From Polaromonas sp. (lineage in GTDB: Bacteria > Pseudomonadota > Gammaproteobacteria > Burkholderiales > Burkholderiaceae_C): a stretch of DNA of 33,400 nucleotides. Under the pieces are notes generated by a model, which searched no databases, had not been told where the DNA came from, and saw only the letters and a list, made by a program, of their open reading frames with translations. Positions 9,434-29,004 of the stretch are shown piece after piece. A program made the position numbers and the translations under genes. Within the stretch, counting starts at the first letter, position 1. The number at the start of each line of letters is the position of its first letter. Location: the NCBI RefSeq assembly GCF_012927415.1, contig NZ_JABBPF010000172.1:1-33400 (forward strand), read 5' to 3'.

Positions 9434-9526
9434 ACCCTTGTCGCAGGCTCGCTGCGCGTCGCTGCCTCGCCCCTTGCAGGGGATGCCGCTTGCGGCCCGG
9501 CTAAGCGGGTTCCGCCGCCGCTGCTT
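9434..9526 (+). repeat. GC-rich dispersed repeat, copy E2
   Basis: Shares with E1 (reverse complement) the blocks CTTGTC, a C-run/G-run hairpin (CCCCTTGCAGGGG), TGCGGCCCGGC, and GGTTCCGC followed by CTGCT. It occupies most of the gap between the LivG- and LivH-type genes. Confidence 0.65.
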
Positions 9527-9587
9527 GAAAGTGACACATTCGTGCCCCGGAAATTTGTTGAAGCCATGATGGTATTGCCGTTCCGGG

Positions 9588-10511
9588 TTAGTGACTGGTG
9601 CCGAGGTAGGCGCTGATCACGTCAGGGTTGTTGCGCACCTCGTCGGGTGTGCCATCGCCAATTTTTTTGCCATAGTCGAGCACTACGACGCGGTCGGAAA
9701 TATCCATGACCACACCCATGTCGTGCTCGATCAGGACAACCGTGGTGCCAAACTCGTCGTTGACATCGAGCACAAAGCGGCACATGTCCTGCTTTTCTTC
9801 CACGTTCATTCCGGCCATGGGTTCATCGAGCAGTAGCACCTGCGGCTCCATCGCCAGGGCGCGGCCGAGGTCTACGCGCTTTTGCAGGCCATAAGGCAAC
9901 TGCCCGACTGGCGTTTTTCGGTAGGCCTGGATTTCCAGGAAGTCGATAATCTTTTCAACTGCCTCGCGGTGTCTGAATTCTTCCTTTTGCGCCGGCCCGA
10001 TGCGCAGCGCCTGCAGCAGCAGATTGCTCTTGATCTTCAGGTTGCGGCCCGACATGATGTTGTCCAGCACGCTCATGCCCTTGAACAAGGCCAGGTTCTG
10101 AAAGGTCCGGGCTACGCCCATCACCGCCACCTGGTGACTGTTCATGTGTTTAAACGTCTGGCCGCGAAAGGTGATGGAGCCCTGTTGCGGCGAGTACACG
10201 CCATTGATGCAGTTGAGCATAGAGCTTTTGCCCGCTCCGTTGGGGCCGATGATGGCGCGAATTTCATGCTCTTTAACATTGAAGGAAATGTCGTGCAAAG
10301 CCTTGACCCCGCCAAAGCTCAGGCTGATGTTCTGCACGTCAAGAATGACGTCACCGATTATTTTTGCCCCCACGCCTGTCGCTTCGCGTACCACGCTGCC
10401 CTCCGTGAGGGCTGAGCTTGCTTGGGGCGACCAGGCGCTGCATTCGTTCGATCCCGCACGGGGTTCTGCGTGGGCTGTGCCTGCGTCTGGAGTTAGGTTC
10501 GCTGTTGTCAT
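9588..10511 (-). CDS. LivG-type ABC transporter ATP-binding protein with repeat-derived N-terminal extension
   Basis: ATPase subunit of the importer, 307 residues. Walker A is GPNGAGKS (89-96), the signature is LPYGLQKRV (205-213), Walker B is VLLLDEP (225-231), followed by the LivG insert MAGMNVEEKQDM and the switch histidine in LIEHDMGVV. The ABC fold starts near residue 55. The preceding 54 residues are low-complexity and include a stretch (about 28-49) encoded by a copy of the GC-rich repeat E3. ATG 10511 overlaps the TGA of the ligase gene (ATGA), with AAGG upstream, so translation from this start is well supported. A GTG nearer the domain (about residue 47) is a weaker alternative. Confidence 0.92.
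   Translation of the reverse strand: MTTANLTPDAGTAHAEPRAGSNECSAWSPQASSALTEGSVVREATGVGAKIIGDVILDVQNISLSFGGVKALHDISFNVKEHEIRAIIGPNGAGKSSMLNCINGVYSPQQGSITFRGQTFKHMNSHQVAVMGVARTFQNLALFKGMSVLDNIMSGRNLKIKSNLLLQALRIGPAQKEEFRHREAVEKIIDFLEIQAYRKTPVGQLPYGLQKRVDLGRALAMEPQVLLLDEPMAGMNVEEKQDMCRFVLDVNDEFGTTVVLIEHDMGVVMDISDRVVVLDYGKKIGDGTPDEVRNNPDVISAYLGTSH
10366..10430 (+). repeat. GC-rich dispersed repeat, copy E3 (inside the LivG-type coding region)
   Basis: GCCCCCACGCCTGTCGCTTCG followed by CGTAC, CTGCCC and GAGGGC matches the first half of E1 on its reverse strand almost base for base (CCCCCACGC-TGTC-CTTCG-GTAC-CTGCCC-CCG-G-GGG). It lies in frame in the N-terminal extension of the LivG-type protein. 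Confidence 0.68.
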
Positions 10512-12454
10512 GCTGCAGCCTTCACGGGGACAAACGTCTGGGTATCGCCAATCTTGAGCGTGGCGCTGACGCTGCCACTGCGGCCGTCTTCGAACTTGAC
10601 CACGGTTTCAATAAACTGTTCGGATTTGTCGCTGTAGAGGGCGTCGATCAGCGGCTGGTATTTCTCGGCGATGAAGCCGCGGCGCACCTTGTTGGTACGC
10701 GTCAGTTCGCCGTCGTCCGCATCGAGTTCCTTGTGCAAGACCAGAAAGCGGCTGACTTGCGAGCCGGCAAGCAAGGCGTCTTCGCTCAAGTCGGCATTGA
10801 CCTTCTCGACACACTCCTTGACGAGTTGATAAACCTCGGTCTTTTGTGCGAGATCGGTGTAACCCGCATAAGGCAGGTTGCTGCGTTCGGCCCAGTTGCC
10901 AACCGCGTCAAAATCAATGTTGATGAAAACGCAGGCTTTTTCCCGGCCATCGCCGTAAGCTACGACTTCCTTGATGTATGGGAAGAACTTGAGCTTGTTC
11001 TCGACATACTTGGGCGCAAACATGGCGCCATCATTGACGCCGCCCCTGATGTGGCCCACGTCCTTGACGCGGTCAATGATCTTGAGGTGGCCATTCGCGT
11101 CGATGAAGCCGGCGTCGCTCGTGTGGTACCAGCCATCGGCGGTAAGGACCTCGGCCGTCGCAGCCGGATTTTTGTAGTACTCCTTAAGCAGGCCGGCCGA
11201 CTTGACCATGATTTCTCCGTTGTCGGCGACCTTGATCTGCACTCCCTTGATGGGTACGCCGACCGTGTCGGCGCGCGCTTCGTTGTCCGGCTGAAGGCAG
11301 ACAAACACGGCGGTTTCGGTGGAGCCGTAAAGCTGCTTCAGGTTGATGCCGATGGAACGGTAAAAAGTGAAAAGATCCGGGCCTATGGCCTCGCCAGCGG
11401 TGTAGGCCACGCGCACCCGGGAGAAACCCAGGTTGTTGCGCAGCGGGCCATAAATCAGCAGGTTTCCCACACCGTAGAGCAGGGTCTGCGCAAGGCCTAC
11501 CGGTTTGCCCTCCATGCGGGCAGGTCCGACGCGTTTGGCCACATCCATGAAATAGTTGAAAATGCCGCGCTTGATGCGTCCTGCATCCTCCATCCGAATG
11601 GTCACGCTTGTGAGCAAGCCCTCAAACACCCGCGGCGGTGCAAAATAATAAGTAGGTCCGACTTCCTTGAGGTCAATCGTCACCGTACTCGCGTTTTCCG
11701 GGCAGTTCACCACATAGCCGCAGGCAAGCCATTGCGCATAACTGAAAATGTTCTGGCCGATCCAGGCGGGCGGAAGGTAGGCCAGCACCTCTTCGCCTGA
11801 AGTGAGCTTGTCAAATTCGGCACCCGCCCGCGCGCGGTCCAGCAAGGTGTTGTGGGTGTGGACCACCCCCTTGGGGTTACCGGTCGTTCCGGAGGTAAAA
11901 AACATCGCAGCCACGTCGTCCGGGCTGGTTTTGTCCACTTCTGCCCTGAACAAGGCGGGTTGGCTTTTGCTCAGTGCCAGACCGGAGTCGATCAGCAAGT
12001 CCAGCGATACCAGCCCGGGTTCGTCGTATTTACGCAGACCCCGCGGGTTGTCGAAAATGATGTGGCCGAGGTCTGGACAGCGGTCGCGAATTTCGAGGAG
12101 TTTGTCGACTTGCTCCTGGTCTTCGACCATTGCAAAGCGGACGTCGGCATTGGTGATGGGGAAGACGCATTCAGCACCTACCGCGTCCTGGTACAGCGGA
12201 ATCGGAATCGCGCCCAGCGACTGGGCGGCCAGCATCGTGGCATACAGGCGTGGGCGGTTGGCGCCGATCACCACCATGTGCTCGCCACGCTTCAAGCCGG
12301 CCTTGTGCAGTCCACACGCAATGTGTTCAACCAGCTGGGCCATGCTGGCCCAGCTGCAGGCCTGCCAGATGCCATATTCTTTCTCGCGCATGGCGGGAGC
12401 TTCCGGGCGCTCGGCGGCATGTTTTAGCAGCAGTTGTGGGAACGTGGTCTGCAT
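10508..12454 (-). CDS. FadD/FAA1-like AMP-dependent acyl-CoA ligase
   Basis: A 648-residue acyl-CoA synthetase of the long-chain type. The ATP phosphate loop is TSGTTGNPKG (187-196). Further motifs are YGSTETAV (the A5-type adenine site) and GWYHTSDAGFIDANGHLKIIDRVKDV (hinge and C-terminal domain entry), with the long C-terminal domain of the COG1022 group. It activates a carboxylic acid to its CoA thioester in the cytoplasm. ATG 12454 has AAGGA five bases upstream. Its stop overlaps the LivG-type start (ATGA), so enzyme and transporter are translationally coupled, which suggests it traps the imported acid as CoA ester. Its own promoter lies at about 12507-12557. Chain length or aromatic preference cannot be told from sequence. 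Confidence 0.92.
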   Translation of the reverse strand: MQTTFPQLLLKHAAERPEAPAMREKEYGIWQACSWASMAQLVEHIACGLHKAGLKRGEHMVVIGANRPRLYATMLAAQSLGAIPIPLYQDAVGAECVFPITNADVRFAMVEDQEQVDKLLEIRDRCPDLGHIIFDNPRGLRKYDEPGLVSLDLLIDSGLALSKSQPALFRAEVDKTSPDDVAAMFFTSGTTGNPKGVVHTHNTLLDRARAGAEFDKLTSGEEVLAYLPPAWIGQNIFSYAQWLACGYVVNCPENASTVTIDLKEVGPTYYFAPPRVFEGLLTSVTIRMEDAGRIKRGIFNYFMDVAKRVGPARMEGKPVGLAQTLLYGVGNLLIYGPLRNNLGFSRVRVAYTAGEAIGPDLFTFYRSIGINLKQLYGSTETAVFVCLQPDNEARADTVGVPIKGVQIKVADNGEIMVKSAGLLKEYYKNPAATAEVLTADGWYHTSDAGFIDANGHLKIIDRVKDVGHIRGGVNDGAMFAPKYVENKLKFFPYIKEVVAYGDGREKACVFINIDFDAVGNWAERSNLPYAGYTDLAQKTEVYQLVKECVEKVNADLSEDALLAGSQVSRFLVLHKELDADDGELTRTNKVRRGFIAEKYQPLIDALYSDKSEQFIETVVKFEDGRSGSVSATLKIGDTQTFVPVKAAA

Positions 12455-13825: not shown

Positions 13826-13868
13826 ATGCTATGCTTTTAGCGGACAATGAAATGTCCATCTGACGACA
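13826..13868 (-). promoter_or_regulatory. Predicted activator-dependent promoter of the second binding-protein gene (site B)
   Basis: The palindrome core TGTC-N8-GACA (13853-13868, centre 13860.5) shares its sequence TGACGACAAT with site A. A TAGCAT -10 candidate at 13831-13826 lies at exactly the same distance from the palindrome centre as TATATT does at site A (29.5 to 34.5 bases). This predicts a start near 13819 and activator binding at -41.5. Confidence 0.58.
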
Positions 13869-13888
13869 ATCCAAGGGTGCTCCCTCTC

Positions 13889-13904
13889 AGGACTTACCCG
13901 GAAA
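13889..13904 (+). repeat. 16-bp inverted repeat, right copy
   Basis: AGGACTTACCCGGAAA, exact reverse complement of 12558-12573. It lies between operator site B and the Crp/Fnr start codon, within the probable leader of the regulator gene. Confidence 0.75.
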
Positions 13905-13918
13905 AAAACTGGCGATCC

Positions 13919-14626
13919 ATGTCCACTGACCTGACTCTCTACCAGCGCCGCAGGAAGCCCACGCTTGATGAAGTCCAGGGCATTCCATGGATGCCACTGC
14001 TGCGCCCGGATGAGCGCGCGCGCGCGATGGCCGAGTTGGTGGTGGGCGACGCCGCAGCCGGTGACTATGTCTGCCGGGTTGGCAAACCGGTGACTTACTG
14101 GTTTGGCGTGGTGGAAGGACTGCTCAAGATGAGCGCCGATGATGCGCAGGGTATGACCATGACGTTTACCGGCGTGCCGCCCGGCGGCTGGTTCGGGGAA
14201 GGAACGGCTCTTAAACGCGAGCCCTACCGCTACAACATCCAGGCACTGCGAAAAAGCGTCGTTGCCGGCTTGCCCGTCGACAGTTTTCACTGGTTGCTTG
14301 ACCACTCAATTGGCTTTAACCGCTTTGTCATGAATCAGCTCAACGAGCGTCTCGGGCAATTCATCGCGGCGCGGGAAATTGACCGCATGAACAACCCTGA
14401 TTTGCGCGTCGCGCGCAGCCTTGCCGCGCTGTTCAATCAGGTGCTGTATCCGGGCGTGGGTGAGATTCTACGCATTACGCAGCAGGAACTGGCCTATCTG
14501 GTCGGGCTATCGCGCCAGCGCGTCAACGAAGCGCTGAGAGCGCTGGAAAAACAAGGCACGATTCGCGTGGAATATGGCGGCCTGCGCGTGCTGGACATTT
14601 CGGCGCTGCGCTCCAGCAAGGGTTGA
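13919..14626 (+). CDS. Crp/Fnr-family transcriptional regulator
   Basis: A 235-residue regulator with an N-terminal cyclic-nucleotide-binding-like beta-roll (about residues 40-120, GKPVTYWFGVVEGLLKM...PPGGWFGEGTAL), a dimer helix (about 130-160), and a C-terminal winged helix (ILRITQQELAYLVGLSRQRVNEALRALEKQG, recognition helix about 198-208). No cysteine cluster for an Fe-S centre is seen, so it is not a classic Fnr. The frame is open from 13847, but that start would place operator site B inside the gene. ATG 13919 (MSTDLTLYQRR) is favoured. Divergent from the second binding-protein gene, it most likely activates the transport/ligase promoters. The effector is unknown; an acyl-CoA or the transported acid would be logical. 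Confidence 0.88.
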   Translation: MSTDLTLYQRRRKPTLDEVQGIPWMPLLRPDERARAMAELVVGDAAAGDYVCRVGKPVTYWFGVVEGLLKMSADDAQGMTMTFTGVPPGGWFGEGTALKREPYRYNIQALRKSVVAGLPVDSFHWLLDHSIGFNRFVMNQLNERLGQFIAAREIDRMNNPDLRVARSLAALFNQVLYPGVGEILRITQQELAYLVGLSRQRVNEALRALEKQGTIRVEYGGLRVLDISALRSSKG

Positions 14627-14718: not shown

Positions 14719-14767
14719 ATTTTTACGCTTTTTTTATACGGCGCCATCTTTCTTCTACCCCGTTTTT
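14719..14767 (+). promoter_or_regulatory. Predicted KdpE-binding region upstream of kdp (bipartite T-rich element, copy 1)
   Basis: TTTACGCTTTTTTTAT (TTTACG at 14722) followed 38 bases later by CCGTTTTT (14760-14767). The T-rich block resembles the known E. coli KdpE target upstream of kdpFABC, as I remember it. A third TTTTACGT block lies at 14797-14804. The same two-part pattern with identical spacing occurs at 19870-19918. Confidence 0.6.
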
Positions 14768-14816
14768 ACGTCTCGACAGATAACCTTCTTCTATCGTTTT
14801 ACGTGGGAGAAGGTCA

Positions 14817-14921
14817 ATGGATATTGCTTTTGTTGTCGGTATGGTGTTCCTGTGGGGCGTGATGGCTTTGCTGGTCTGGAGTTTTAAAAGGCTCGAAAAA
14901 CCGCCAGGAGGTCGCTCATGA
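14817..14921 (+). CDS. 34-aa single-span membrane peptide upstream of kdpF
   Basis: A short gene encoding MDIAFVVGMVFLWGVMALL... followed by a basic, Gly-rich tail ([12 protein letters not shown]). It would be one transmembrane helix with its C-terminus in the cytoplasm. GGGAGAAGG lies just upstream of ATG 14817, and its stop overlaps the kdpF start (ATGA), so it is the first cistron of the kdp operon and translationally coupled to KdpF. By size and position it could be a second KdpF-like stabilising peptide of the Kdp complex. This is an inference; no characterised homologue comes to mind. Confidence 0.72.
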   Translation: MDIAFVVGMVFLWGVMALLVWSFKRLEKPPGGRS

Positions 14922-15016
14922 TCGGCCTCGACGTGCTTTACGGCTTTGGCGGCGTTTGCGCAGTCATGCTACTGGCTTATCTCGTTTACGCGCTGATCTG
15001 CGCTGAGGAGTTTTGA
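14918..15016 (+). CDS. kdpF: KdpF, small subunit of the K+-transporting Kdp ATPase
   Basis: A 32-residue hydrophobic peptide ([21 protein letters not shown]..., ending CAEEF) with a single transmembrane helix. Size, hydrophobicity and position directly before kdpA match KdpF, which stabilises the KdpFABC complex in the inner membrane. The start overlaps the preceding small gene (ATGA) and the stop overlaps the kdpA start (TGATG), showing tight coupling. It ends in EEF, like many KdpF peptides whose C-terminus is acidic. Confidence 0.88.
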
Positions 15017-16815
15017 TGAGCAGCGCTTCATGGGGCCTGCTGGCTGTTTTTCTTGGGGTGTTGCTGGTCACTTCCTGGCCGCTCGGCATCTGGCTGGCAC
15101 GCATCAGTTCCGGCAGACTGCCGGGCTGGATGCAGCGGCTGGAAGCGCCGCTCTACCGCCTGGCGGGCACCTCTGCCGACAAGTCGATGAACTGGTGGCA
15201 GTACGCACTCGCTTTGCTGGCCTTCAATGCCGTGGGCCTGCTGGTGGTTTATGCACTGCAGCGCCTGCAGGCCGTGCTGCCGCTCAATCCGGCCGGCATG
15301 GTGGCCGTCTCGCCGGATTCGGCTTTCAACACCGCCATCAGTTTTGTCGCCAATACCGACTGGCAAGGTTATGCCGGCGAGTCCACCATGAGCTACCTGA
15401 CGCAGGTGCTGGCGTTGGCGGTGCAAAACTTTTTATCCGCCGCCACCGGAATCGCGGTGGCGTTTGCGCTGTTTCGTGGTTTTGCTGCACGCTCCACCGG
15501 AATGATCGGCAACTTCTGGGTGGACGTGACGCGCATCACGGCCTGGTTGCTGGTGCCGCTGTCGCTGGTGTTGGCACTGCTTTTTTCAGGCAATGGCGTG
15601 ATCCAGAATTTTGACGCCTACAAGGACGTGGGCACGCTGGAAACCACAAGCTACCAGCAGCCCAAAAATGGCCCTGATGGCCAGCCGCTGAAAGACGCGC
15701 AAGGTGCCGCAGTCATGGAAAACGTGAAAACCGGCACGCAGACGCTGGCCATGGGCCCTGTGGCTTCGCAGGAAGCGATCAAGCTGCTGGGTACAAATGG
15801 TGGCGGTTTTTTCAATGCCAATTCAGCCCACCCCTTTGAGAATCCGAACGCGGTCACCAATTTCTTCCAGATGCTGGCGATTTTCCTGATTCCGGCTGCG
15901 CTGTGCTTTGCCTTTGGCCGCGAGGTCGGCGACCGACGTCAGGGCTGGGCCATTCTGGCGGCGATGACGGTAATGTTTGTCATTGCCGTGGTGGCCATCA
16001 CGCCGGCAGAGCAGGCGGGTAACCCCCTGCTGAGTCCACTTAACGTGGATCAGACGGTCAGTGCCCTGCAGTCGGGCGGCAACATGGAGGGCAAGGAAAC
16101 CCGCTTCGGCATCACCGCCTCCAGCCTGTTTGCGGTCATCACCACGGCGGCGTCTTGCGGCGCCGTCAATGCCATGCACGATTCCTTCACGCCGCTGGGC
16201 GGCATGGTGCCGATGGTGATGATGCAGCTTGGTGAAGTGGTGTTTGGCGGCACTGGCACCGGCCTGTATGGAATGCTGGTGTTTGCCATCCTGGCGGTGT
16301 TCATCGCTGGTCTGATGATTGGCCGCACGCCGGAATACCTGGGCAAGAAGATCGAGGCGCATGAAATGAAGCTGACGTCGATTGCCATTCTGGTCACGCC
16401 CATCGTGGTGCTGGCCGGAACCGCCATTGCCGTGTTGGCGGGGGCCGGCAAGGCGGGCGTGGCCAACCCGGGCGCGCACGGGTTTTCAGAAATTCTCTAT
16501 GCGCTGACTTCGGCAGCCAACAACAACGGCAGCGCCTTCGCCGGGCTGTCAGCCAACACGCCGTTCTACAACACCTTGCTGGGTCTGGCGATGTGGTTTG
16601 GGCGCTTCGGTGTGATCGTGCCGGTGCTGGCGATTGCCGGCAGCCTGGCGGCCAAAAAACGCCTGCCTGTCACGGCAGGAACCATGCCGACTCATGGCCC
16701 GTTGTTCGTCGGGCTGCTGATTGGCACCGTGTTGCTGGTGGGCCTTCTCAACTATGTGCCTTCGCTGGCGCTGGGTCCGGTAGTCGAGCACTTAATGCTG
16801 TGGCCTGGTCAATAA
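15016..16815 (+). CDS. kdpA: KdpA, K+-binding and channel subunit of Kdp ATPase
   Basis: A 599-residue polytopic membrane protein of the usual KdpA size. It belongs to the SKT superfamily and forms the selectivity filter of the high-affinity K+ pump. Recognisable stretches are [18 protein letters not shown] (first filter region), [21 protein letters not shown] (second), [22 protein letters not shown] (third) and [16 protein letters not shown] (fourth). ATG 15016 overlaps the kdpF stop; a TTG one codon upstream is less likely. It acts with KdpB, KdpC and KdpF in the inner membrane. Confidence 0.97.
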
Positions 16816-16841
16816 ACCGCAAGGTCAATGAAATCACAACC

Positions 16842-18917
16842 ATGATTACCAAAAAACCATTTGTTTTGCTCGATCCGGCGCTGCTCAAGCCGGCCATTGT
16901 GGCGTCGTTCACCAAGCTGAGTCCGCGCGTGCAATGGCGCAATCCAGTGATGTTTGTCGTTTATATCGGCAGCATCTTGACGACCTTGCTGGGCCTTCAG
17001 GCGCTGCAGGGTCAGGGCGAGGCGCCAGCAGGCTTCATTTTTGCTGTGGCTTTGTGGCTGTGGTTCACCGTGCTGTTCGCCAATTTCGCCGAAGCGCTGG
17101 CCGAAGGCCGCAGCAAGGCGCAGGCCGCTTCACTGCGGAGCCTGAAAAAAAGCACCTGGGCCAAAAAGCTGAAGGAGCCCAGACATGGAGCGTCCTGGTT
17201 GCCCGAGCAGGCTGAAAACCTGCGCAAGGGCGATGTGGTGCTGGTGGAAGCTGGCGACATGATCCCGCTGGACGGTGAAGTCATCGAAGGCGTGGCGTCG
17301 GTCGACGAGAGCGCCATCACTGGCGAATCTGCACCCGTGGTGCGCGAGTCGGGCGGTGACTTTTCATCGGTCACCGGCGGCACGCGAGTCCTGTCCGACT
17401 GGCTGGTGGTGCGTGTCTCGGTCAATCCGGGCGAATCGTTCCTGGACCGCATGATCAGCATGGTCGAGGGCGCCAAGCGCGCCAAGACGCCAAACGAAAT
17501 CGCCCTGACTATTTTGCTGGTGGCGCTGACCATCGTGTTTTTGATTGTCACGGTCAGCCTGCTGCCGTTTTCAATCTTCAGCGTGGCGGCAGCCGGTTCG
17601 GGGAAGGTCGTCAGCATCACTGCCCTGATTGCCCTGCTGGTCTGCCTGATCCCGACCACCATCGGCGGTTTGCTGTCGGCGGTCGGTGTGGCGGGCATGA
17701 GCCGCATGATGCAGGCCAATGTGATTGCCACGTCGGGCCGCGCGGTGGAAGCGGCCGGAGATGTGGACGTGTTGCTGCTCGACAAGACCGGCACCATCAC
17801 GCACGGCAATCGCCAGGCCTCCGCTTTCCTGCCAGCGCCGGGCGTGTCGCAGGCCCAGCTCGCCGCATGCGCCATGCAGGCCTCGATGGCTGATGAAACG
17901 CCCGAGGGCCGCAGCATCGTGACGCTGGCCCAAAAACTCGATGCGGTGCAGGTGCTGATCGGCGCTACTACTGAAGTACCCTTCACGGCCCAGACCCGCA
18001 TGAGCGGTATTGATTTGCAAAAGCCTGACGGCAGCACGCGCCAGCTGCGCAAGGGCGCCGTCGATGCCATTCGCAAACACGTCGAGGCGCTGGGCGGAAG
18101 CGTGCCTTTGGAAGTGACACGCGCGTCCGATGATGTCTCGCGCCGCGGCAGCACGCCGCTGGCGGTGGCCGACGGCAGCAGCGTCCTTGGCGTGGTGGAG
18201 CTAAAAGACATCGTCAAGTCCGGCATCAAGGAGCGCTTTGGCGAACTGCGCCGAATGGGCATCACGACCATCATGATCACCGGCGACAACAAGCTCACGG
18301 CGGCGGCGATCGCGGCGGAAGCAGGCGTAGACGACTTCCTGGCCGAGGCCACGCCGGAAGACAAGCTCAAGCTGATTCGCCAGTATCAGGCCGAAGGCCG
18401 CCTGGTGGCCATGACCGGCGACGGCACCAACGACGCCCCCGCGCTGGCGCAAGCCGATGTGGCGGTGGCCATGAACAGCGGCACCCAGGCGGCCAAGGAA
18501 GCAGGCAATATGGTCGATCTGGACTCGAACCCGACCAAGTTGCTGGAGATTGTCGAGACCGGCAAGGCCCTGCTGATGACGCGCGGTTCGCTCACCACCT
18601 TCTCGATCGCCAACGACGTGGCCAAGTACTTCGCCATCATCCCGGCGATATTTGTCACCACCTACCCGCAGCTGGCGGCACTGAATGTGATGCGCCTGGG
18701 CAGTCCTTCCTCGGCCATTTTGTCGGCGGTGATTTTCAATGCATTGATCATCATGTTTTTGATCCCGCTGGCGCTCAAGGGGGTGAAGTACCGCGCCGTG
18801 GGTGCGGCCGCGCTGCTGCGCCGAAATCTGCTGATTTACGGACTGGGTGGGTTGATCGTGCCCTTTATCGGAATCAAGGCCATCGACCTGTTGCTGGTCG
18901 CCCTGAATTTCGCCTGA
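16842..18917 (+). CDS. kdpB: KdpB, P-type ATPase subunit of Kdp
   Basis: The catalytic subunit, 691 residues, a P-type ATPase that drives K+ import. The phosphorylation motif is [10 protein letters not shown] with Asp at residue 314. The actuator loop has [10 protein letters not shown], the nucleotide/phosphatase domain has [31 protein letters not shown] (about 525-555), and the M4 segment is [15 protein letters not shown]. The open frame extends far upstream inside kdpA. The ATG at 16842 ([19 protein letters not shown]) matches the family start and leaves 26 bases after the kdpA stop. Its ribosome binding site is weak (AAGG about 15 bases upstream). Confidence 0.97.
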
Positions 18918-18956
18918 GCGACAAGACTCAGACAACAAGCTTCATAAGGATCTCCC

Positions 18957-19529
18957 ATGAAAAACATTCTTCGTCCCGCACTCGTTCTGTTCTTCGTGCT
19001 CACGCTGCTGACTGGCGTAGCGTATCCGCTGGTGGTGACCGGGGCCGCGCAACTTCTCTTTCCAAATCAGGCCGGCGGCAGCCTGATACTGCAGGGCGGC
19101 AAGCCCGTGGGTTCAGACCTCATTGGGCAGAATTTCAGCGACCCTAAAAACTTCTGGGGCCGCCCTTCGGCCACTGGCCCCATGCCATACAACGCCTCTG
19201 CCTCCAGCGGCTCCAACCTAGGGCCACTCAATCCCGCACTGACCGATGCGGTCAAAAGTCGGGTGGAAGCGCTCAAGGCGGTAGATCCGGGCAACACGGC
19301 AAAGGTACCGGTTGACCTCGTGACCGCGTCGGCAAGTGGGCTTGATCCGCACATCAGCCCCGCCGCCGCCCGCTATCAGGTCGCGCGTGTTGCCAAAGCC
19401 AGAGGCATTCCCGCCGATAAGGTGCAGAGCCTGGTTGAGCGGCAGACCGAAACTCCGTTGTTCGGCTTTCTGGGTGAGCCACGCGTCAATGTCCTGCGAC
19501 TGAACCTGGCATTGCAGGCTACTCGCTGA
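18957..19529 (+). CDS. kdpC: KdpC, periplasmic-facing subunit of Kdp ATPase
   Basis: A 190-residue protein with one N-terminal membrane helix ([24 protein letters not shown]) and a soluble domain carrying the family motifs [35 protein letters not shown] and [28 protein letters not shown]. KdpC helps K+ binding by the pump. AAGGAT precedes the ATG. It ends the kdpFABC block, and no clear terminator was seen in the 450 bases that follow. Confidence 0.96.
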
Positions 19530-19982
19530 AATGCGCGCGAATGACCTGTGCCGGGCATGCATTGGCGCGGCAGGGTAAACGCCTGGCTGGACAAAGGCAT
19601 CGCTCGCAGCGGGCCAAGTTGGCGGATCCGGCTGGACGAGCAGCGCAGCCACGCTTGACCCTAATTAACTTCGAAGCAGTACCGATACGCGTGCCGGCTT
19701 TTACGACTTCTGCAAGCGAACGCCCTGCGGGCTCCTGACACCCGACGGTTGATACGCCATGGCTGGCACCGGCCTGTCAATTTCCGGGCTGAGTTCTTGC
19801 TGCACAGGCTTGCCTTGCGCCGGTTAGCCCAAGAAAAAATACAGCTGCCGATCCGGCGGTCTGCAGCGTTAATTTACGGTTTTTTAATCAATAGCCAACC
19901 AGTTTAAGTACCGTTTTTCTACCCACACATTCAGAATTTGCAGATCGATCGTTCTGCTAAAAATTGTAGACAAAAGGACATC
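19530..19982. other. 453-base gap after kdpC
   Basis: No convincing gene. A 65-codon frame at 19541-19738 has no ribosome binding site and no family resemblance. The right part (about 19865-19925) is AT-rich and holds the second bipartite T-rich element, so this is probably a promoter region for the gene at 19983. Confidence 0.6.
19870..19918 (+). promoter_or_regulatory. Predicted KdpE-binding region upstream of the 115-aa gene (bipartite T-rich element, copy 2)
   Basis: TTTACGGTTTTTTAAT (TTTACG at 19873-19878) and CCGTTTTT (19911-19918). The 38-base spacing is identical to that at 14722/14760, and GCCA also matches at the same offset between the two blocks. This suggests the same regulator binds in front of kdp and in front of the accessory genes. 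Confidence 0.58.
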
Positions 19983-20330
19983 ATGGCTTACGCTGCTTAT
20001 CGTGAATCGTTTGGTGCGAACAGTTCCTGTTGGCTGCCTGAAGAACGTCGGTTACGGCTAGCCCGGAAGCCGGTGGTGCTGGACGTCACCGTCCCGAGCC
20101 GGGACGCGTTTCGGGTGCGCCGCTTGCTGGCCGGCTTTCCAGATACCGGCGTTGTGCGTTGCGTGCCAAGGCCGCGCGATAGCCTGGTGCGTCTGGAGAT
20201 ACGGTTGCCGGCTGATCGGGTGGCCGATGTCATGCATCTGCTCATGACCGCCCTTTCGAGCGGCGAGATGGGCTCGCTGAACTCGTGGCAGCGTCACCTG
20301 ACCACCCATGGGATGACCCATGGATTCTGA
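19983..20330 (+). CDS. Unknown 115-aa protein in the kdp locus, possible ferredoxin-like (ACT/P-II type) fold
   Basis: A cytoplasmic protein without signal or membrane segment. After a polar first 30 residues the pattern VVLDVTVPSRDAFRVRRLL (strand-helix), then VVRCVPRPRDSLVRLEIRLP (two strands), then DRVADVMHLLMTAL (helix) reads as beta-alpha-beta-beta-alpha-beta, the layout of ACT or P-II-like domains. I do not recognise the family. AAAGGACA lies just before ATG 19983; the frame is open to 19938 but without a ribosome site. It is between kdpC and the porin/kdpDE genes, behind a T-rich element like the one at kdp, and its end overlaps an ATG in the next frame (20320). A sensory or modulatory role in K+ homeostasis is inference only. 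Confidence 0.72.
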   Translation: MAYAAYRESFGANSSCWLPEERRLRLARKPVVLDVTVPSRDAFRVRRLLAGFPDTGVVRCVPRPRDSLVRLEIRLPADRVADVMHLLMTALSSGEMGSLNSWQRHLTTHGMTHGF

Positions 20331-21306
20331 TCTTGTGCGCTCCGCAGGCGCGTTGGCGGCTTTGCGCTGCCGCCAGGCTTCGCAGGGTTCATTGTGTGGC
20401 GCGCGATATCGCCGGCAGGCGCAACGACAAGGATTGAGTCCTTACCGCATCAGCCGTCTGGACATCGCCGGCAGGCGGTTGCACGCCAGCTTCAACTATT
20501 TCGCAAACCAAGGAAATCGAAGGAGCCCGAAAAAACACCTGTTGCCTTTTGCCGCCTGCCTTCTGTGCGTTGCGGGCGCCGCACGGGCGCAAACAGTCGA
20601 CACGCCTGCCGCCGAACCCGCTTCGCCCCATACCCTGACCGGCAATGTGGCTGCGGTTTCCGACTACCGCTTCCGTGGCGTCTCGCAAACTTACCGCCAT
20701 CCAGCCATACAGGGCGGCTTCGATTACACCCATGACAGCGGTTTTTACCTGGGCAACTGGAATTCCAGCGTCTCGGCCAACTCTTTCAACAATGGTGCAA
20801 GTCTGGAAGTTGATTTGTATGGCGGCTTCCGCTTTCCGGTAGCCAAAAACCTGAGCGGCGATGTTGGCGTGATTCGCTATCTGTATCCGGGCGCCAGGCT
20901 CAACAGTGCGCTGGCGACGCCGACCGGCAACAAGTACGACAACACCGAGGTCTACTTCGGACTCACGCAAGGCGCCTTCAACGCCAGGCTTTCGTATGCG
21001 GTTAGCGATTACTTTGGCCTGAACGGCAGCACTGCAGGCTATGCTTATTTCAACGCCTTGCCAAACCGCGGGAATTCCAAGGGGACGATGTACCTGGACC
21101 TTAACTACAACGTTGATTTGGGCAACCAGGTCACCTTGGGTTTGCATGCCGGGTACACCAGCGTTCGCCGTTACAGCGAGCTTTCCTACACGGACTACAA
21201 AATTTCCGTGGGCAAGGAATTTGCCGGCTTGAACCTCAACCTGGCATGGGTCGGCGCCAACGCCGACAGCGGGTTCTACCAGGCGGCCGACCCCCGGGCG
21301 GGCTGA
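20320..21306 (+). CDS. TorF-like (TIGR02001) putative outer-membrane porin; start uncertain
   Basis: The C-terminal 220 residues match the TorF/TIGR02001 family of small outer-membrane beta-barrels: HTLTGNVAAVSDYRFRGVSQTYRHPAIQGGFDYTHDSGFYLGNWNSSVS, then alternating aromatic strands to LNLAWVGANADSGFYQ. A signal peptide core (KKHLLPFAACLLCVAGAARA|Q) starts near 20530, but no ATG or GTG stands in front of it. The open frame begins at ATG 20320, which overlaps the previous gene and would add about 70 non-signal residues. TTG 20479 is a possible real start. AGGAG at 20521-20525 sits where the ribosome site for an ATG before KKHLL would be, suggesting a lost start codon. Its place before kdpD suggests an outer-membrane path for K+; this is inference. 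Confidence 0.75.
   Translation: MDSDLVRSAGALAALRCRQASQGSLCGARYRRQAQRQGLSPYRISRLDIAGRRLHASFNYFANQGNRRSPKKHLLPFAACLLCVAGAARAQTVDTPAAEPASPHTLTGNVAAVSDYRFRGVSQTYRHPAIQGGFDYTHDSGFYLGNWNSSVSANSFNNGASLEVDLYGGFRFPVAKNLSGDVGVIRYLYPGARLNSALATPTGNKYDNTEVYFGLTQGAFNARLSYAVSDYFGLNGSTAGYAYFNALPNRGNSKGTMYLDLNYNVDLGNQVTLGLHAGYTSVRRYSELSYTDYKISVGKEFAGLNLNLAWVGANADSGFYQAADPRAG
20408..20477 (+). repeat. 14-bp direct repeat in the porin leader
   Basis: ATCGCCGGCAGGCG occurs at 20408-20421 and again at 20464-20477. It lies in the stretch between the end of the 115-aa gene and the porin signal peptide, which does not look like normal coding sequence. Confidence 0.6.
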
Positions 21307-21450
21307 ACCCGAAAAAACTGGCGAAAACAGCGCTTGTGGTTTCAGTCGGCAAAACCTTCTGACGCAAAATCAAAGTCATGAAAGCGGCACCTGCCAGTTG
21401 CGACAGTGTTACGCTTTCGCAGGCATTTTTGACTCCAACAACTTCTCCTG

Positions 21451-24150
21451 ATGGCGCATAACCCCGATTTCCGGCCTGACCCCGACCAGCTGCTCGATCA
21501 ACTCAGGGAGCATGAAGCGCGATCAAGCCGTGGCAAGCTACGCATTTATTTTGGCGCCAGCGCGGGCGTCGGCAAAACCTACGCCATGCTCAGTGCCGCC
21601 CAGCGGGAGCTGAAAGCCGGGCATGATATTCTGGTCGGAGTGATCGAAACACACGGACGCAGCGAAACGGCCGAACTTCTGGCCGGGCTTGAGCAATTGC
21701 CGCTGCGCGAGGTGCCTTACCGCGGCCGGACCCTGCAGGAGTTCGATCTGGACGCGGCGCTGGCGCGCAGGCCGGCCGTGCTGCTGGTCGACGAGCTGGC
21801 GCACAGCAACGTAAACGGCTCGCGCCACCCCAAGCGCTGGCAGGACGTACAGGAATTGCTGGAGGCCGGCATCGACGTCTGGTCGGCGATCAATGTCCAG
21901 CACCTGGAAAGCCTCAATGGCACGGTCGGTGCCATCACCGGCATCCGGATCAACGAGACCGTGCCCGACACGGTACTGGATGCGGCCGACGAGATCATTC
22001 TGGTCGATGTCACGCCGGACGAGCTGACGGCGCGGCTCAAGGCCGGCAAGGTCTACCTGCCGCAACAGGCCGAGCGAGCGGCACAAAACTTTTTCCGCAA
22101 GGGCAACCTGATTGCGCTGCGCGAGATTGCCTTGCGGCGCACCGCCGAGCATGTCGAAGACGATGTGCGCAGCTACCGGGTCCAGAAATCCATCGCCCCG
22201 GTGTGGAACACCGAAGGCGCGTTGCTGGTCTGCATCGGGCCGCGCGAAGGCGCCGAGCAGGCCGTTCGCACGGCGGCCCGGCTGGCCGGCCAGCTCAATG
22301 TGCGCTGGCATGCGGTCTATGTGGAAACTCCGCGCCTGCAGCGGCTCAAGGTGATTGAACGGGACCGGATTCTGGCGGTCATCAAGCTGGCCGAAGAACT
22401 GGGCGCTGCAACGGCTGTGCTGGCAGGCGGCGATGTGGCCGCCGAACTGGTGACGCAGGCGCAAGTGCTCAACTGCGCCACGCTGGTGGTGGGCCGGCCC
22501 GTGTTGCCGGGCTGGTCTGCATTGTGGAGCGGGCGCACCATGACGCGCCGGCTGGCCATGCTGGCCCCCACGCTGGACATTGTGGAGGTGGGCCATGCCG
22601 AAAGTGCCCGGCGGCTGGTTCGGGCCGTCCAGCGCCCCGATGAAGAAGCCGCCACCGCCTGGCAAGAAAGCTTGCCGCGTTATGCCTGGGCTGTTGCCGG
22701 CAGCGTGGCCGTTACGGTGCTTGCGACGCCGCTGGTGAATTTTTTCGACCTGGCCAACATCGTGATGCTGTTTTTGCTGGGCACGGTGCTGGTGGCGCTG
22801 AAGCTGGGGCGTGGTCCGGCGGCGCTGGCGGCTTTCCTCAATGTCGCAGCCGTTGACGTCTTTTTTGTGGCGCCGCGCCTGTCGTTCGCGGTCAGCGATG
22901 TGCAGTATCTGGTGACCTTTGCCGTCATGCTGGTGGTGGGGCTGCTGACGGGCCAGCTGACGGCGGGCCTGCGGTTTCAGGCGCGCATTTCTTCCAGCCG
23001 GGAGCGCCGCGCGCAGTCGCTGTTCGAGCTGACGCGCGAACTGTCGGCCGCCTTGCTGCATTCGCAAGTGGCCGAACTGGGCGAAGCGGCGGTGCAGCGC
23101 AATTTCGGCGGGCAGGCGCTGGTCTTGATGACCGATGCCAGGGACCAGCTGGTGCTGCCTGACCACGCGCCTCCGGGCTTCGATGCGAACGTGGCCGACT
23201 GGGCGTTTCGCAATACCCAGCCAGCCGGCCTGGCGACCTCCACTCTGTCCGCCCAGTCGTGGCATTACGTGCCGCTGAAAGCGCCCATGCGGGTGCGCGG
23301 CGTGCTGGCGCTGCAGCCGGCGCAGCCGCGCTGGCTGCTGATCCCCGAACAGCTGCAGCAGCTCGATACGCTGGCGCGGCAAATCGCCATCGCGCTGGAG
23401 CGCGTGCACTATGTGGACATTGCCCAGCAGGCGGTGGTGGAAATGGAGTCGGAGCGGCTGCGCAACACGCTGCTGGCGGCCATCTCGCACGATGTCCGCA
23501 CTCCGCTGACAGCACTGATCGGGCTGGCCGAGTCGTTGCAGCGCTCGTTGCCGCCGCTAGGCCGCCAACAGGCCGGGATGGTCCAGGCAATGACCCAACA
23601 GGCGCGCCAGCTCAATGCCCTGGTGACCAATCTTCTGGACATGGCACGGTTGCAGAACGGCGGAGTTAGCCTGCACAGCGAGTGGCAGTCGGTCGAAGAG
23701 GTGGTTGGTTCGGCGATTCGGGCCGCGCAACCAGCGCTGGAGGGGCAGGCGCTCAGGACCGAGATGCCGCCGGATTTGCCGCTGGTCGAGTTCGACGCCG
23801 TCCTGATGGAGCGGGTGCTGGTGAATCTGCTGGAAAACGCCGCCAAGTACGGCGCGCCACCTCTTGAGGTCAACGCCCGCGTGACACCGGACAGTCTGGT
23901 GCTGACGGTGCGCGACCACGGGCCGGGGTTGCCGCCGGCCATGCGGGGCCGCGAGGCCGAGCTGTTCGAGAAATTTACCCGCGGCCAATCCGAGTCCGCC
24001 ACGCCCGGCGTGGGGCTGGGGCTCGCCATCTGCAAAGCCATCGTGGACGCGCACCGGGGGCAGATTGTGGCTGGCAACGCCCAGGACGGGGGGGCGGAAT
24101 TTACCCTGACCCTGCCGCGCCGCGCCCCACCGGTTCCGGCGCTTGACTAA
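21451..24150 (+). CDS. kdpD: KdpD, K+-sensing histidine kinase
   Basis: An 899-residue sensor kinase of full KdpD size. The N-terminal KdpD domain has GKLRIYFGASAGVGKTYAML (Walker A 35-43) and VDELAHSN (113-120). A USP-like domain follows (about 250-370, LLVCIGPREGAEQAVRTAARLA), then four membrane segments (about 405-505), a linker/GAF-like region, the HisKA box SHDVRTPLTALIGLAESL with His680, and an ATPase domain with NLLENAAKYG, VRDHGPGLPP and GVGLGLAICKAIV. It phosphorylates KdpE when K+ is limiting. ATG 21451 lacks a clear ribosome site (CTTCTCCTG precedes it), so translation may be weak. The kdpE gene follows after 9 bases. Confidence 0.96.
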   Translation: MAHNPDFRPDPDQLLDQLREHEARSSRGKLRIYFGASAGVGKTYAMLSAAQRELKAGHDILVGVIETHGRSETAELLAGLEQLPLREVPYRGRTLQEFDLDAALARRPAVLLVDELAHSNVNGSRHPKRWQDVQELLEAGIDVWSAINVQHLESLNGTVGAITGIRINETVPDTVLDAADEIILVDVTPDELTARLKAGKVYLPQQAERAAQNFFRKGNLIALREIALRRTAEHVEDDVRSYRVQKSIAPVWNTEGALLVCIGPREGAEQAVRTAARLAGQLNVRWHAVYVETPRLQRLKVIERDRILAVIKLAEELGAATAVLAGGDVAAELVTQAQVLNCATLVVGRPVLPGWSALWSGRTMTRRLAMLAPTLDIVEVGHAESARRLVRAVQRPDEEAATAWQESLPRYAWAVAGSVAVTVLATPLVNFFDLANIVMLFLLGTVLVALKLGRGPAALAAFLNVAAVDVFFVAPRLSFAVSDVQYLVTFAVMLVVGLLTGQLTAGLRFQARISSSRERRAQSLFELTRELSAALLHSQVAELGEAAVQRNFGGQALVLMTDARDQLVLPDHAPPGFDANVADWAFRNTQPAGLATSTLSAQSWHYVPLKAPMRVRGVLALQPAQPRWLLIPEQLQQLDTLARQIAIALERVHYVDIAQQAVVEMESERLRNTLLAAISHDVRTPLTALIGLAESLQRSLPPLGRQQAGMVQAMTQQARQLNALVTNLLDMARLQNGGVSLHSEWQSVEEVVGSAIRAAQPALEGQALRTEMPPDLPLVEFDAVLMERVLVNLLENAAKYGAPPLEVNARVTPDSLVLTVRDHGPGLPPAMRGREAELFEKFTRGQSESATPGVGLGLAICKAIVDAHRGQIVAGNAQDGGAEFTLTLPRRAPPVPALD

Positions 24151-24159
24151 ACACCGCCT

Positions 24160-24858
24160 ATGCCTAATCCCGTTGTCGTAGTGGTGGAAGACGAGCCGCA
24201 GATCCGCCGCTTTGTGCGCAGCGCGCTGGAGAGCGAGGGCTGGCAGGTGTTCGAGGCCGACACAGCGCAGCGCGGCTTGAGCGAAGCCGGCACCCGCAAG
24301 CCCGATTTGCTGGTGCTCGACCTGGGCTTGCCTGATCGCGACGGCCTGGAGCTGATCCGCGACGTGCGTGGCTGGTCGGCCGTGCCTATCATTGTGCTGT
24401 CAGCGCGGGCCGACGAGGCCGACAAGATTGCCGCGCTGGACGCCGGCGCCGACGACTACCTGACCAAGCCTTTTGGCATCGGTGAACTGCTGGCCCGGGT
24501 GCGCGCCAATCTGCGCCGGCCGCGCGTCGCCAACCCTGACGGCAGCGTTGAGGAGCCGCTGTTCAGTTTTGGCGATGTGGTGGTGGACCGGCAGGCGCGG
24601 CTGGTGCGGCGCGGCGGGGTCGAGGTTCATCTGACGCCGCTTGAGTACCGGTTGCTCACGGTGCTGGTCAGCAACGCTGGCCGCGTGCTGACACACCGCC
24701 AGCTGCTGCGCGAGGTGTGGGGGCCATCGCATGCCGGGCAGAGCCACTACCTGCGCATTTACATGGGCCATTTGCGGCAAAAGCTGGAGGCCGACCCTGC
24801 GCAGCCCAAACACTTGCTGACGGAAACAGCGGTGGGCTACCGGCTGCTGTTATCCTGA
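24160..24858 (+). CDS. kdpE: KdpE, OmpR/PhoB-type response regulator
   Basis: A 232-residue response regulator. The receiver has the acidic pair Glu10-Asp11, the phospho-acceptor Asp54 in LLVLDLGLPDRDG, Ser81 and Lys103 in YLTKPFGIGELLARV. The C-terminal winged helix (about 130-232) ends with VEVHLTPLEYRLLTVLVSNAGRVLTHRQLLREVWG and HYLRIYMGHLRQKLEADP...GYRLLL, the KdpE/OmpR pattern. It is coupled to kdpD by a short gap and expected to activate kdpFABC through T-rich sites such as 14719-14767. No strong ribosome site is visible. A small hairpin (TCCGG-tttt-CCGGA, 24862-24875) follows the stop. Confidence 0.96.
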   Translation: MPNPVVVVVEDEPQIRRFVRSALESEGWQVFEADTAQRGLSEAGTRKPDLLVLDLGLPDRDGLELIRDVRGWSAVPIIVLSARADEADKIAALDAGADDYLTKPFGIGELLARVRANLRRPRVANPDGSVEEPLFSFGDVVVDRQARLVRRGGVEVHLTPLEYRLLTVLVSNAGRVLTHRQLLREVWGPSHAGQSHYLRIYMGHLRQKLEADPAQPKHLLTETAVGYRLLLS

Positions 24859-27728: not shown

Positions 27729-28256
27729 GTGAAAAAGAATGTTTTTGCCAAGTTTGCGCTGATTGCTTTGGGAACTTGCGCTGTTGCAGCTTCTGCCGCG
27801 ACAAGCACTGCAACCTTTCAGGTGCTCATGAAAGTCCAGAGTTCGTGCGCGGTGACGGCTGGGTTAGCTTCCAACATCGATCTGGGCCCCCAGTTGTCGA
27901 CTGCGACCGCCCTGACTGGTAGTAGCACTATCAGCGTGACCTGCTCCAAGAAGACGCCGTACTTCATCGGCTTGGCGCCGTCCAACGCCAACACGCTGGG
28001 TCTGGGTTCGATGGCTGCGCTGAATGTAGCGCCGGTCACCGGCAATACCGACGCCGTTCCCTACCAGCTCCGTTCCGCGACGGGCATTGCTGGCGCCATC
28101 TGGGGCAATACTGCAACCGCCACGGCCGTTGGTAATGGCGTGAGCGGTACCGGTACCGGTGGGTCGCAATCGATTCCGGTTTATGCCACAGCTGCAAGCG
28201 CCAACTTCACGCCCGACAGTTATGCCGACACGGTTACAGTTACCGTGAATTACTGA
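27729..28256 (+). CDS. Csu-type pilin, spore coat U (SCPU) domain protein
   Basis: A 175-residue secreted protein, the likely major subunit of a Csu-family (archaic, sigma/pi-like) chaperone-usher pilus. The start is GTG with AGGA seven bases upstream. The signal peptide is KKNVFAKFALIALGTCAVAASA|A. The mature domain carries Cys40 in VQSSCAVTA and Cys72 in ISVTCSKKTPYFIGLAP, probably a disulfide pair, then TGNTDAVPYQL and the closing strand SANFTPDSYADTVTVTVNY. The last motif recurs in the tip protein at 31357-32361, which fits a common fold. It opens a four-gene operon with chaperone, usher and tip genes. Confidence 0.9.
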   Translation: MKKNVFAKFALIALGTCAVAASAATSTATFQVLMKVQSSCAVTAGLASNIDLGPQLSTATALTGSSTISVTCSKKTPYFIGLAPSNANTLGLGSMAALNVAPVTGNTDAVPYQLRSATGIAGAIWGNTATATAVGNGVSGTGTGGSQSIPVYATAASANFTPDSYADTVTVTVNY

Positions 28257-28266
28257 TAATCGTGTC

Positions 28267-29004
28267 ATGACCCGCCGCTTGCGATATTCCCTGATTACCG
28301 CATTCTGGCTGGTGTGCGGAATGGCTGCAGCAAGCGGCCTGCAGGTGTCGCCGATCACGCTGACCCTGCCGCCGACGCAAAACGCTGATGGCCTCTGGCT
28401 CAGCAACACCGGCGACAACGTGGTGAGCGCGCAGATCCGGGTCTATCGCTGGACGCAGGAGGGTTTCGAGGACAAGCTAACACCTTCGCGCGGCCTGCTG
28501 GTCAGTCCGCCGATGTTGCAGTTGCCCGCCGAGGGCCGTCAACTGATCCGGGCGATCCGTGCCGGGGCGCCGCCCAATGGCGCGGGGGCCGTGCAAGAGG
28601 CTTATCGCATCATCATCGATGAACTTCCGGTGGACACGCAGGGCAAGAAGGGCTTGCAGTTTGTACTGCGCTATTCGGTGCCGATTTTTGTTCAGCCCGC
28701 CGGGGAGCCGCCCATCGCGCCTCAACTGCGCTGGGCTGTGCGCGATGAAGCGGGTACGGCGTTTCTGGAAGTTGCCAACAGTGGCGGCAGCCACGCCCAG
28801 TTGGCTGATTTGAGTTTTACCGATACCGCCGGTCGCCGCACCGCAGTGCATGCCGGGCTGCTCGGCTATGTCTTGCCAGGTGCGAAAATGCGCTGGGCTT
28901 TGAAGCCCGCCGCAGCGACCTTCACCGCTGGCGGCAGCTGGGAAGCAATGATCAATGGCAATACAGCGCAGCAAAACATCCAGACGGCTGATAGCCCTCG
29001 TTGA
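28267..29004 (+). CDS. Fimbrial periplasmic chaperone (PapD/CsuC type)
   Basis: A 245-residue chaperone with signal peptide (RRLRYSLITAFWLVCGMAAA) followed by two Ig-like domains. The N-terminal domain has LQVSPITLTLPPTQNADGLWLSNTGDNVVSAQIRVYRW and VSPPMLQLPAEGRQLIRAIR. The G1 region LQFVLRYSVPIFVQP provides alternating hydrophobic residues for donor-strand complementation of pilins. The second domain begins near PQLRWAVRDEAGTAFLEVANSGGSHAQL. It folds pilins in the periplasm and delivers them to the usher. It begins 10 bases after the pilin stop and overlaps the usher gene by 50 bases. Confidence 0.92.
   Translation: MTRRLRYSLITAFWLVCGMAAASGLQVSPITLTLPPTQNADGLWLSNTGDNVVSAQIRVYRWTQEGFEDKLTPSRGLLVSPPMLQLPAEGRQLIRAIRAGAPPNGAGAVQEAYRIIIDELPVDTQGKKGLQFVLRYSVPIFVQPAGEPPIAPQLRWAVRDEAGTAFLEVANSGGSHAQLADLSFTDTAGRRTAVHAGLLGYVLPGAKMRWALKPAAATFTAGGSWEAMINGNTAQQNIQTADSPR

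Follow-up and report, generated by a model that had tools for sequence, protein, structure and literature searches.

The window analysed here, a 33,400 bp stretch of the Polaromonas sp. contig NZ_JABBPF010000172.1, carries the kdpFABC genes and the genes for the sensor kinase KdpD and the response regulator KdpE, all on the plus strand. Two T-rich elements were found in it, one beginning at 14722 upstream of kdpFABC and the other beginning at 19873 upstream of a gene for an uncharacterised 115 amino acid protein, here called p115. From sequence comparison, it is probable that both derive from KdpE-dependent promoters of one design, in which half-sites stand at offsets 0 and 11 (box A) and 32 and 43 (box B) and a -10-like hexamer stands at offset 59. 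We are less confident that the second element works well in the window genome.

The pair of elements and its conservation

An earlier note on this DNA claimed that TTTACG[C/G]TTTTTT occurs at 14722 and 19873, with CCGTTTTT following 38 nt on in both places. The two blocks, TTTACGCTTTTTT (14722–14734) and TTTACGGTTTTTT (19873–19885), were located there and are the only two matches in the window at up to one mismatch, and CCGTTTTT begins at +38 of each. The mean number of block matches in 100 dinucleotide shuffles of the window was 0.05, and no shuffle contained two. When the combined pattern TTTACGSTTTTTTN{19,33}CCGTTTTT was used to search the genome (G000; 3,647,902 bases), only 14722 and 19873 were returned, making the pair unique genome-wide, and a reversed-pattern control returned nothing. 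The additional internal match that had been claimed, GCCA, is present at +21 in both elements, but few relatives share it (L036 is one) and the orthologous sites in L033 and L077 lack it. This match is probably due to chance.

The likeness of the first element to the KdpE site of Escherichia coli holds. Box A of the kdp promoter (14722–14738) consists of TTTACG (14722–14727), 5 nt and TTTATA (14733–14738), the 6-5-6 layout of the TTTATA-N5-TTTACA sequence bound by E. coli KdpE, where the footprint extends from -72 to -50 in the portion of the published account used here (PMC3264566). Two direct repeats of the TTTA(T/C)A type 5 bp apart are therefore present in the kdp element, while the second element has this form in its first half-site only.

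Twenty kdp upstream regions, 16 from the genus (window included) and four from family relatives, were aligned and used to train a 58-bp ungapped matrix and a sequence-only model, R1. Box A is kept and the spacing of the element is constant across this training set, and most further matches have the same spacing, though small indels alter it in L199. Conservation in relatives, on which the earlier note had made its proposal depend, was thus found for the kdp element. R1 matched 34 of the 87 genus genomes at E ≤ 0.1 and 56 of the 299 family genomes at E ≤ 0.003, and all 27 loci newly built from the strongest matches of the family scan precede kdp. Six weak matches in the genus scan (L200–L205) were dismissed as chance, having neither kdp nor p115 behind them and scores below 9 bits. 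In 71 loci comprising 2.38 million positions, 58 distinct sites of at least 10 bits were found. Of these, 46 precede kdp (19 being training members), 11 precede p115 and one lies elsewhere. Set against this specificity, the 71 loci were picked for holding kdp or p115, two unexplained places score 2–3 bits in the same scan, and the family relatives L055 and L056 carry only weak boxes ahead of kdp.

Because the combined pattern was picked post hoc, models that exclude the tested site were also applied. With the 58-bp matrix, the highest score in the window was at 14722 (73.5 bits; a training member) and the second at 19873 (11.2 bits), followed by -12.8 bits at the next non-overlapping place. 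The top matrix score in 60 shuffled windows, both strands included, was -0.6 bits, and none of 2000 one-strand shuffles of the kdpC–p115 gap reached 11.2 bits (best 7.5). A matrix built from p115-upstream sites of other genomes, with two same-clade orthologues excluded, gave 28.1 bits at 14722, 10.3 at 19873 and -5.3 at the next place. Of the genomes with a kdpC–p115 gap, the two nearest are G207 and G272; their sites at the orthologous place scored 44.5 and 31.0 bits, respectively, and start 105–106 nt before p115, compared with 110 nt in the window. The second block is thus also conserved in relatives, at the same place in these two genomes and ahead of most p115 copies that lie outside the kdp operon.

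Promoter layout and a candidate second KdpE box

The earlier note described a two-part element. Both parts are present, but the second part is better seen as a separate KdpE-like half-site at +43, just 5' of a -10-like hexamer. This half-site, TTTACG (14765–14770), lies inside the CCGTTTTT stretch and, together with an off-consensus half-site position at +32 (14754–14759), makes up the candidate box B (14754–14770) of the kdp promoter. The hexamer, TAACCT (14781–14786), lies 10 nt past box B, and NANNNT is found at offset 59 in 20/20 training elements. A direct repeat that ends 10 nt before a -10-like hexamer is a pho-box-like layout.

This arrangement was mapped in 46 kdpA upstream regions that had no part in training, taken from genomes of the order and class, by placing the best KdpE box and recording other half-sites relative to it. 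Among the 28 upstream regions with a box of at least 14 bits, half-sites recurred at +43 (17 promoters), -21 (eight), +32 (seven) and -32 (six); the remaining offsets had a mean of 0.29 and a maximum of four, at +13. With shuffled flanks, a half-site was never found at +43 in more than two promoters in 300 runs. TANNNT occurs at +59 in 14/28 promoters and in no more than two at any other offset between 50 and 74. The E. coli kdp promoter has TTTGCG at +32, TTTGCA at +43 and TACCCT at +59. Overlapping site matches 32 bp apart, as two boxes predict, were found ahead of kdp in L042 (positions 3640 and 3672; 24.6 and 28.3 bits). From this layout, kdp promoters may hold a second KdpE contact, and we infer a pair of KdpE boxes spaced by 32 bp, with the downstream box at the position that PhoB occupies. 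As a separate observation made by eye, three successive KdpE half-sites at 11-bp steps lie ahead of kdp in L044 (3730–3760).

Several results weigh against the proposed design. No box of 14 bits was found in 18 of the 46 upstream regions; in three of these (L130, L141 and L171) the stretch was wrong because of a contig end, but the other 15 are true misses, and the 28 retained promoters are unaffected. In E. coli, the place at +77 scores 8.5 bits, above both +32 (4.8) and +43 (4.9), so the E. coli promoter alone is weak evidence and proves nothing. The +32 half-site in Polaromonas is conserved yet off-consensus, and box B consequently rests mainly on +43. Finally, the E. coli footprint, as given in the portion of the account used here, takes in box A alone (-72 to -50; PMC3264566).

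Box B could also be read by RNA polymerase or by another factor and not by KdpE, the shared spacing then being core promoter structure. It does fall within the -35 region, its distance from the -10-like hexamer is constant, and a footprint that ends upstream of it and an off-consensus first half in Polaromonas would both be expected. However, the second half of box B is TTTAYR-like in 17/28 promoters and starts at about -28, outside the usual -35 hexamer of sigma-70 promoters. Where half-sites precede the best box by 21 or 32 bp (8/28 and 6/28 promoters, respectively), the downstream box also looks like the better one. We therefore regard a box B without KdpE as unlikely, and retain two KdpE boxes as the preferred description of the layout.

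The second element and the p115 family

In the window, the second element has TTTACG at offset 0 but TTAATC, TAAGTA and TTTCTA at 11, 32 and 43, so only one of its four half-sites is good. In its box A (19873–19889), TTTACG (19873–19878) is intact and TTAATC (19884–19889) is degenerate. In its box B (19905–19921), TAAGTA (19905–19910) and TTTCTA (19916–19921) have each degenerated; in place of the latter, G207 and G272 carry TTTACG. The -10-like hexamer at offset 59 is CAGAAT (19932–19937), which is also found in G272, while G207 has CAAGAT. At 11.2 bits the second element stands above all 2000 gap shuffles and far below its relatives. R1 in local mode gave 5.2 bits at 19873 (E 0.9), a level that chance matches equal or exceed, and an own-genome R1 scan with E up to 10 omitted 19873. 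Because of this low local score and the absence from the own-genome scan, we consider the second copy degenerate. Here the promoter may have little strength or be in decay, or the sequence may contain assembly errors. A sigma-70 promoter scan of 19450–21500 found no promoter (0.5 expected) and two terminator-like sites (3.1 expected), and was uninformative.

Accordingly, the kdp element may be the sole working operator here, with the p115 element left over from an ancestral KdpE promoter and now in decay. The three off-consensus half-sites and the gap between 11 bits in the window and 44.5 and 31.0 bits in the nearest relatives are what such decay would produce, and it would extend downstream, where a small open reading frame (ORF) has a frame change and the porin gene lacks the ATG seen in G207. 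The first half-site, T-tract, spacing and -10-like hexamer have nevertheless been retained, the p115 frame is open, and kdpDE lies behind p115. A remnant of this kind is possible, but we think it doubtful and favour two promoters of one design, of which the second has deteriorated to some extent.

The distribution of p115 bears on what such a promoter would control. A single peptide pattern identified 37 p115 relatives with an organism name, seven from Polaromonas (the best matches), 29 from Variovorax and one from Pseudorhodoferax. With the window genome included, p115 was present in 11/87 genus genomes, 12/200 family genomes (some matches weak) and 3/300 order genomes (one weak, with an internal stop), and on these counts it is mainly a family-level gene. 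Where p115 lies within 80 nt behind kdpC, none of 34 copies has a site of its own (33 distinct, as L053 and L109 are identical). Elsewhere, 11 of 15 copies, including that in the window, have their own site, and nine of these 11 sites start 95–110 nt before the p115 match. This count excludes p115 matches below 45 bits (L057, L058 and L059) and repeat records (L079–L085). The exceptions tell against a strict association: the separated copies in L055 (5.5 bits, at -95), L056 (-2.2, at -95), L112 (-13.3, at -96) and L078 (-33.5) lack a 10-bit site, and of the excluded copies L057 has a site (36.3 bits) but L058 and L059 have none. Even so, a KdpE-type promoter of its own in 11/15 scored separated copies would tie the conserved, unnamed p115 to potassium starvation. 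One kdp locus, L074, has two copies of p115 (9441–10541), and the second of them has its own KdpE-type site (46.1 bits).

A chance likeness of the two places is very improbable. It could be argued from the frequency of poly-T runs in spacers, the post hoc choice of pattern and the mere 5.2 bits of the local model, but the shuffles, the genome-wide uniqueness, both matrices and the same-place sites in G207 and G272 all speak against it.

KdpE, encoded at 24160–24858 (NF007820, 359 bits; cut-off 325), is the presumed reader of both elements. Its identity to E. coli KdpE is 67%; the SHYLRIYMGHLRQKLE stretch is the same in both proteins, and the residues with which the E. coli protein contacts DNA (R193, R200 and T215) are all kept. 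The window protein should therefore read E. coli-type half-sites. As the half-sites in the window match those of E. coli and these residues are kept, KdpE is the natural reader, which favours the single regulator, most simply KdpE, that the earlier note had proposed. A different regulator is most improbable. One candidate would be the product of the CRP-like gene at 13847, which directly precedes kdp in the window and in several Polaromonas loci, but the element is a KdpE-type direct repeat whereas CRP-type sites are usually inverted repeats. The element also occurs in loci whose fetched stretch around kdp showed no CRP-like gene (e.g. L034, L050 and L053).

With KdpE as the reader, phosphorylated KdpE would bind box A, with its two TTTAYR half-sites 11 bp apart, at about -71 to -55 in E. 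coli numbering. It would also bind box B, a partly degenerate pair at about -39 to -23, 32 bp or approximately three helical turns downstream. Box B would then fill the -35 region and end 10 bp before the -10, like PhoB at phoA, and RNA polymerase would be recruited at low K+. The first promoter would drive kdpFABC together with sm34, a small ORF that precedes it. The second, ahead of p115, the porin gene and kdpDE, would keep p115 in the K+-starvation regulon where it is not directly behind kdpC. As kdpDE follows p115 and the porin gene in the same direction, the second promoter may also feed back on its own regulator. KdpE binding, the occupancy of box B, the response to K+ and the activity of the second copy in the window are all inferred from sequence. 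As a promoter rule, half-sites at 0/11/32/43 with a -10-like hexamer at 59 appear selective enough to pick likely KdpE targets from sequence.

Neighbouring genes and comparison with known systems

The plus-strand order in the window is a gene for a CRP-like regulator, sm34, kdpF, kdpA, kdpB, kdpC, a 453-nt gap, p115, a small ORF, a Gcw_chp/TorF-family porin gene, kdpD and kdpE. The CRP/FNR-like regulator gene (13847–14626) directly precedes kdp in the window and is retained near kdp in many Polaromonas loci. sm34 (14817–14921) encodes 34 amino acids with one hydrophobic stretch, judged by eye, and is present in most fetched Polaromonas kdp loci; a family search with it returned no match. kdpF and kdpA occupy 14918–16815 (KdpF, TIGR02115, E 8.3e-7), and kdpB and kdpC occupy 16842–19529 (KdpC, PF02669, 1e-76), with kdpA and kdpB named from gene order and relatives. 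The kdpD product (21451–24150) matches PF02702 (3.6e-96), and its best match is NF007793 KdpD at 1050.9 bits, below the cut-off of 1123. In L045 (12279–12932), a two-box KdpE-like site (23.8 bits) lies directly 3' of kdpE, before a gene for a phosphotransferase system EIIA-2 (PtsN-like) protein (PF00359, 2.4e-27). EIIA-Ntr acts on KdpD in E. coli. At 27729–32361 of the window, the translations read to us like a chaperone-usher fimbrial cluster.

The stretch behind p115 shows signs of damage. A small hydrophobic ORF (MDSDL...; 41–48 amino acids; 20320–20460), the start of which overlaps the p115 stop, is open in L033, L051 and L077 but shifts frame in the window. By eye, a similar small hydrophobic ORF was seen directly after kdpC in L054. 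The putative porin gene (20521–21306) lies in a frame open from 20320, its start is uncertain, and the ATG found in G207 is absent. Its product is a TorF/Gcw_chp-family member by score (PF09694, 1.8e-56, 192 bits against a Pfam cut-off of 24; TIGR02001, 8.7e-48, 163 bits against an NCBIfam cut-off of 47). The link of this family to KdpE, seen in some genomes only, is based on position behind p115 in the window, G207 and G194 (L057), together with a site of 5.1 bits in Variovorax (L102); in G194, kdp is on a different contig from that of L057 and has its own site. Given the degeneracy of the second element and the odd start of the porin gene, p115 is the better-supported target. Of the K+-starvation regulon that the earlier note proposed, comparative evidence thus favours the uncharacterised protein, and the porin less so.

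p115 (19983–20330) belongs to a kdp-linked family with weak P-II-like profile matches. No Pfam or NCBIfam family matched the window protein, and a search of both with 31 members at E up to 1 gave scattered single matches, with the P-II family absent. Against PDB, a profile from alignment A4 gave 11 matches, 10 of them P-II proteins, with a best E of 0.044, which is not significant; five of seven matches were P-II with A5, and six of 12 with A1, where other proteins ranked top. An hhalign comparison with local P-II proteins gave E 0.023 at a probability of 2%. An origin of p115 from DUF3240 was rejected (hhalign E 0.036, probability 1.4%), though this comparison is a poor test as some sequences in the DUF3240 set read like P-II. 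p115 resembles the P-II proteins GlnB and GlnK in length and, by eye, in a G-x-[I/M]-G stretch, but the profile likeness falls short of significance and is a weak, unproven lead. On a speculative view, many kdp promoters, perhaps including that of E. coli, would have an unrecognised second KdpE box at a PhoB-like position, and with a promoter of this kind Comamonadaceae-type bacteria would control p115 as a new P-II-like protein, a GlnK counterpart for potassium that tunes either KdpFABC or KdpD. We judge this combination improbable as a whole.

The sequence upstream of E. coli phoA reads TGTCAT-5-TGTCAC-10-TATAGT, in which we take the repeat to be the pho box and the last hexamer the -10. The PhoB pho box of phoA shares with the kdp promoter a 6-5-6 repeat followed by 10 nt and a -10, but its repeat is of the TGTCA type and not TTTAYR, so the comparison is one of layout only. 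PhoB belongs to the same response-regulator family as KdpE, according to the portion of the account used here (PMC3264566). By 2017, KdpE sites were known from four species, and the mycobacterial site is A-rich, unlike the T-rich one, as stated in the portion of that source used here (PMC5401905). No description of a KdpE regulon in Betaproteobacteria was found in the literature searched, which comprised titles and abstract openings, most subscription papers falling outside the search. The closest known system is the E. coli kdpFABC promoter, which likewise has two TTTAYR direct repeats 5 nt apart at the same distance from a -10-like hexamer. One box is described there, in the portion of the account used here (PMC3264566), whereas the promoters examined here have an extra half-site position 32–43 bp downstream, and a second promoter of this kind is predicted before p115.

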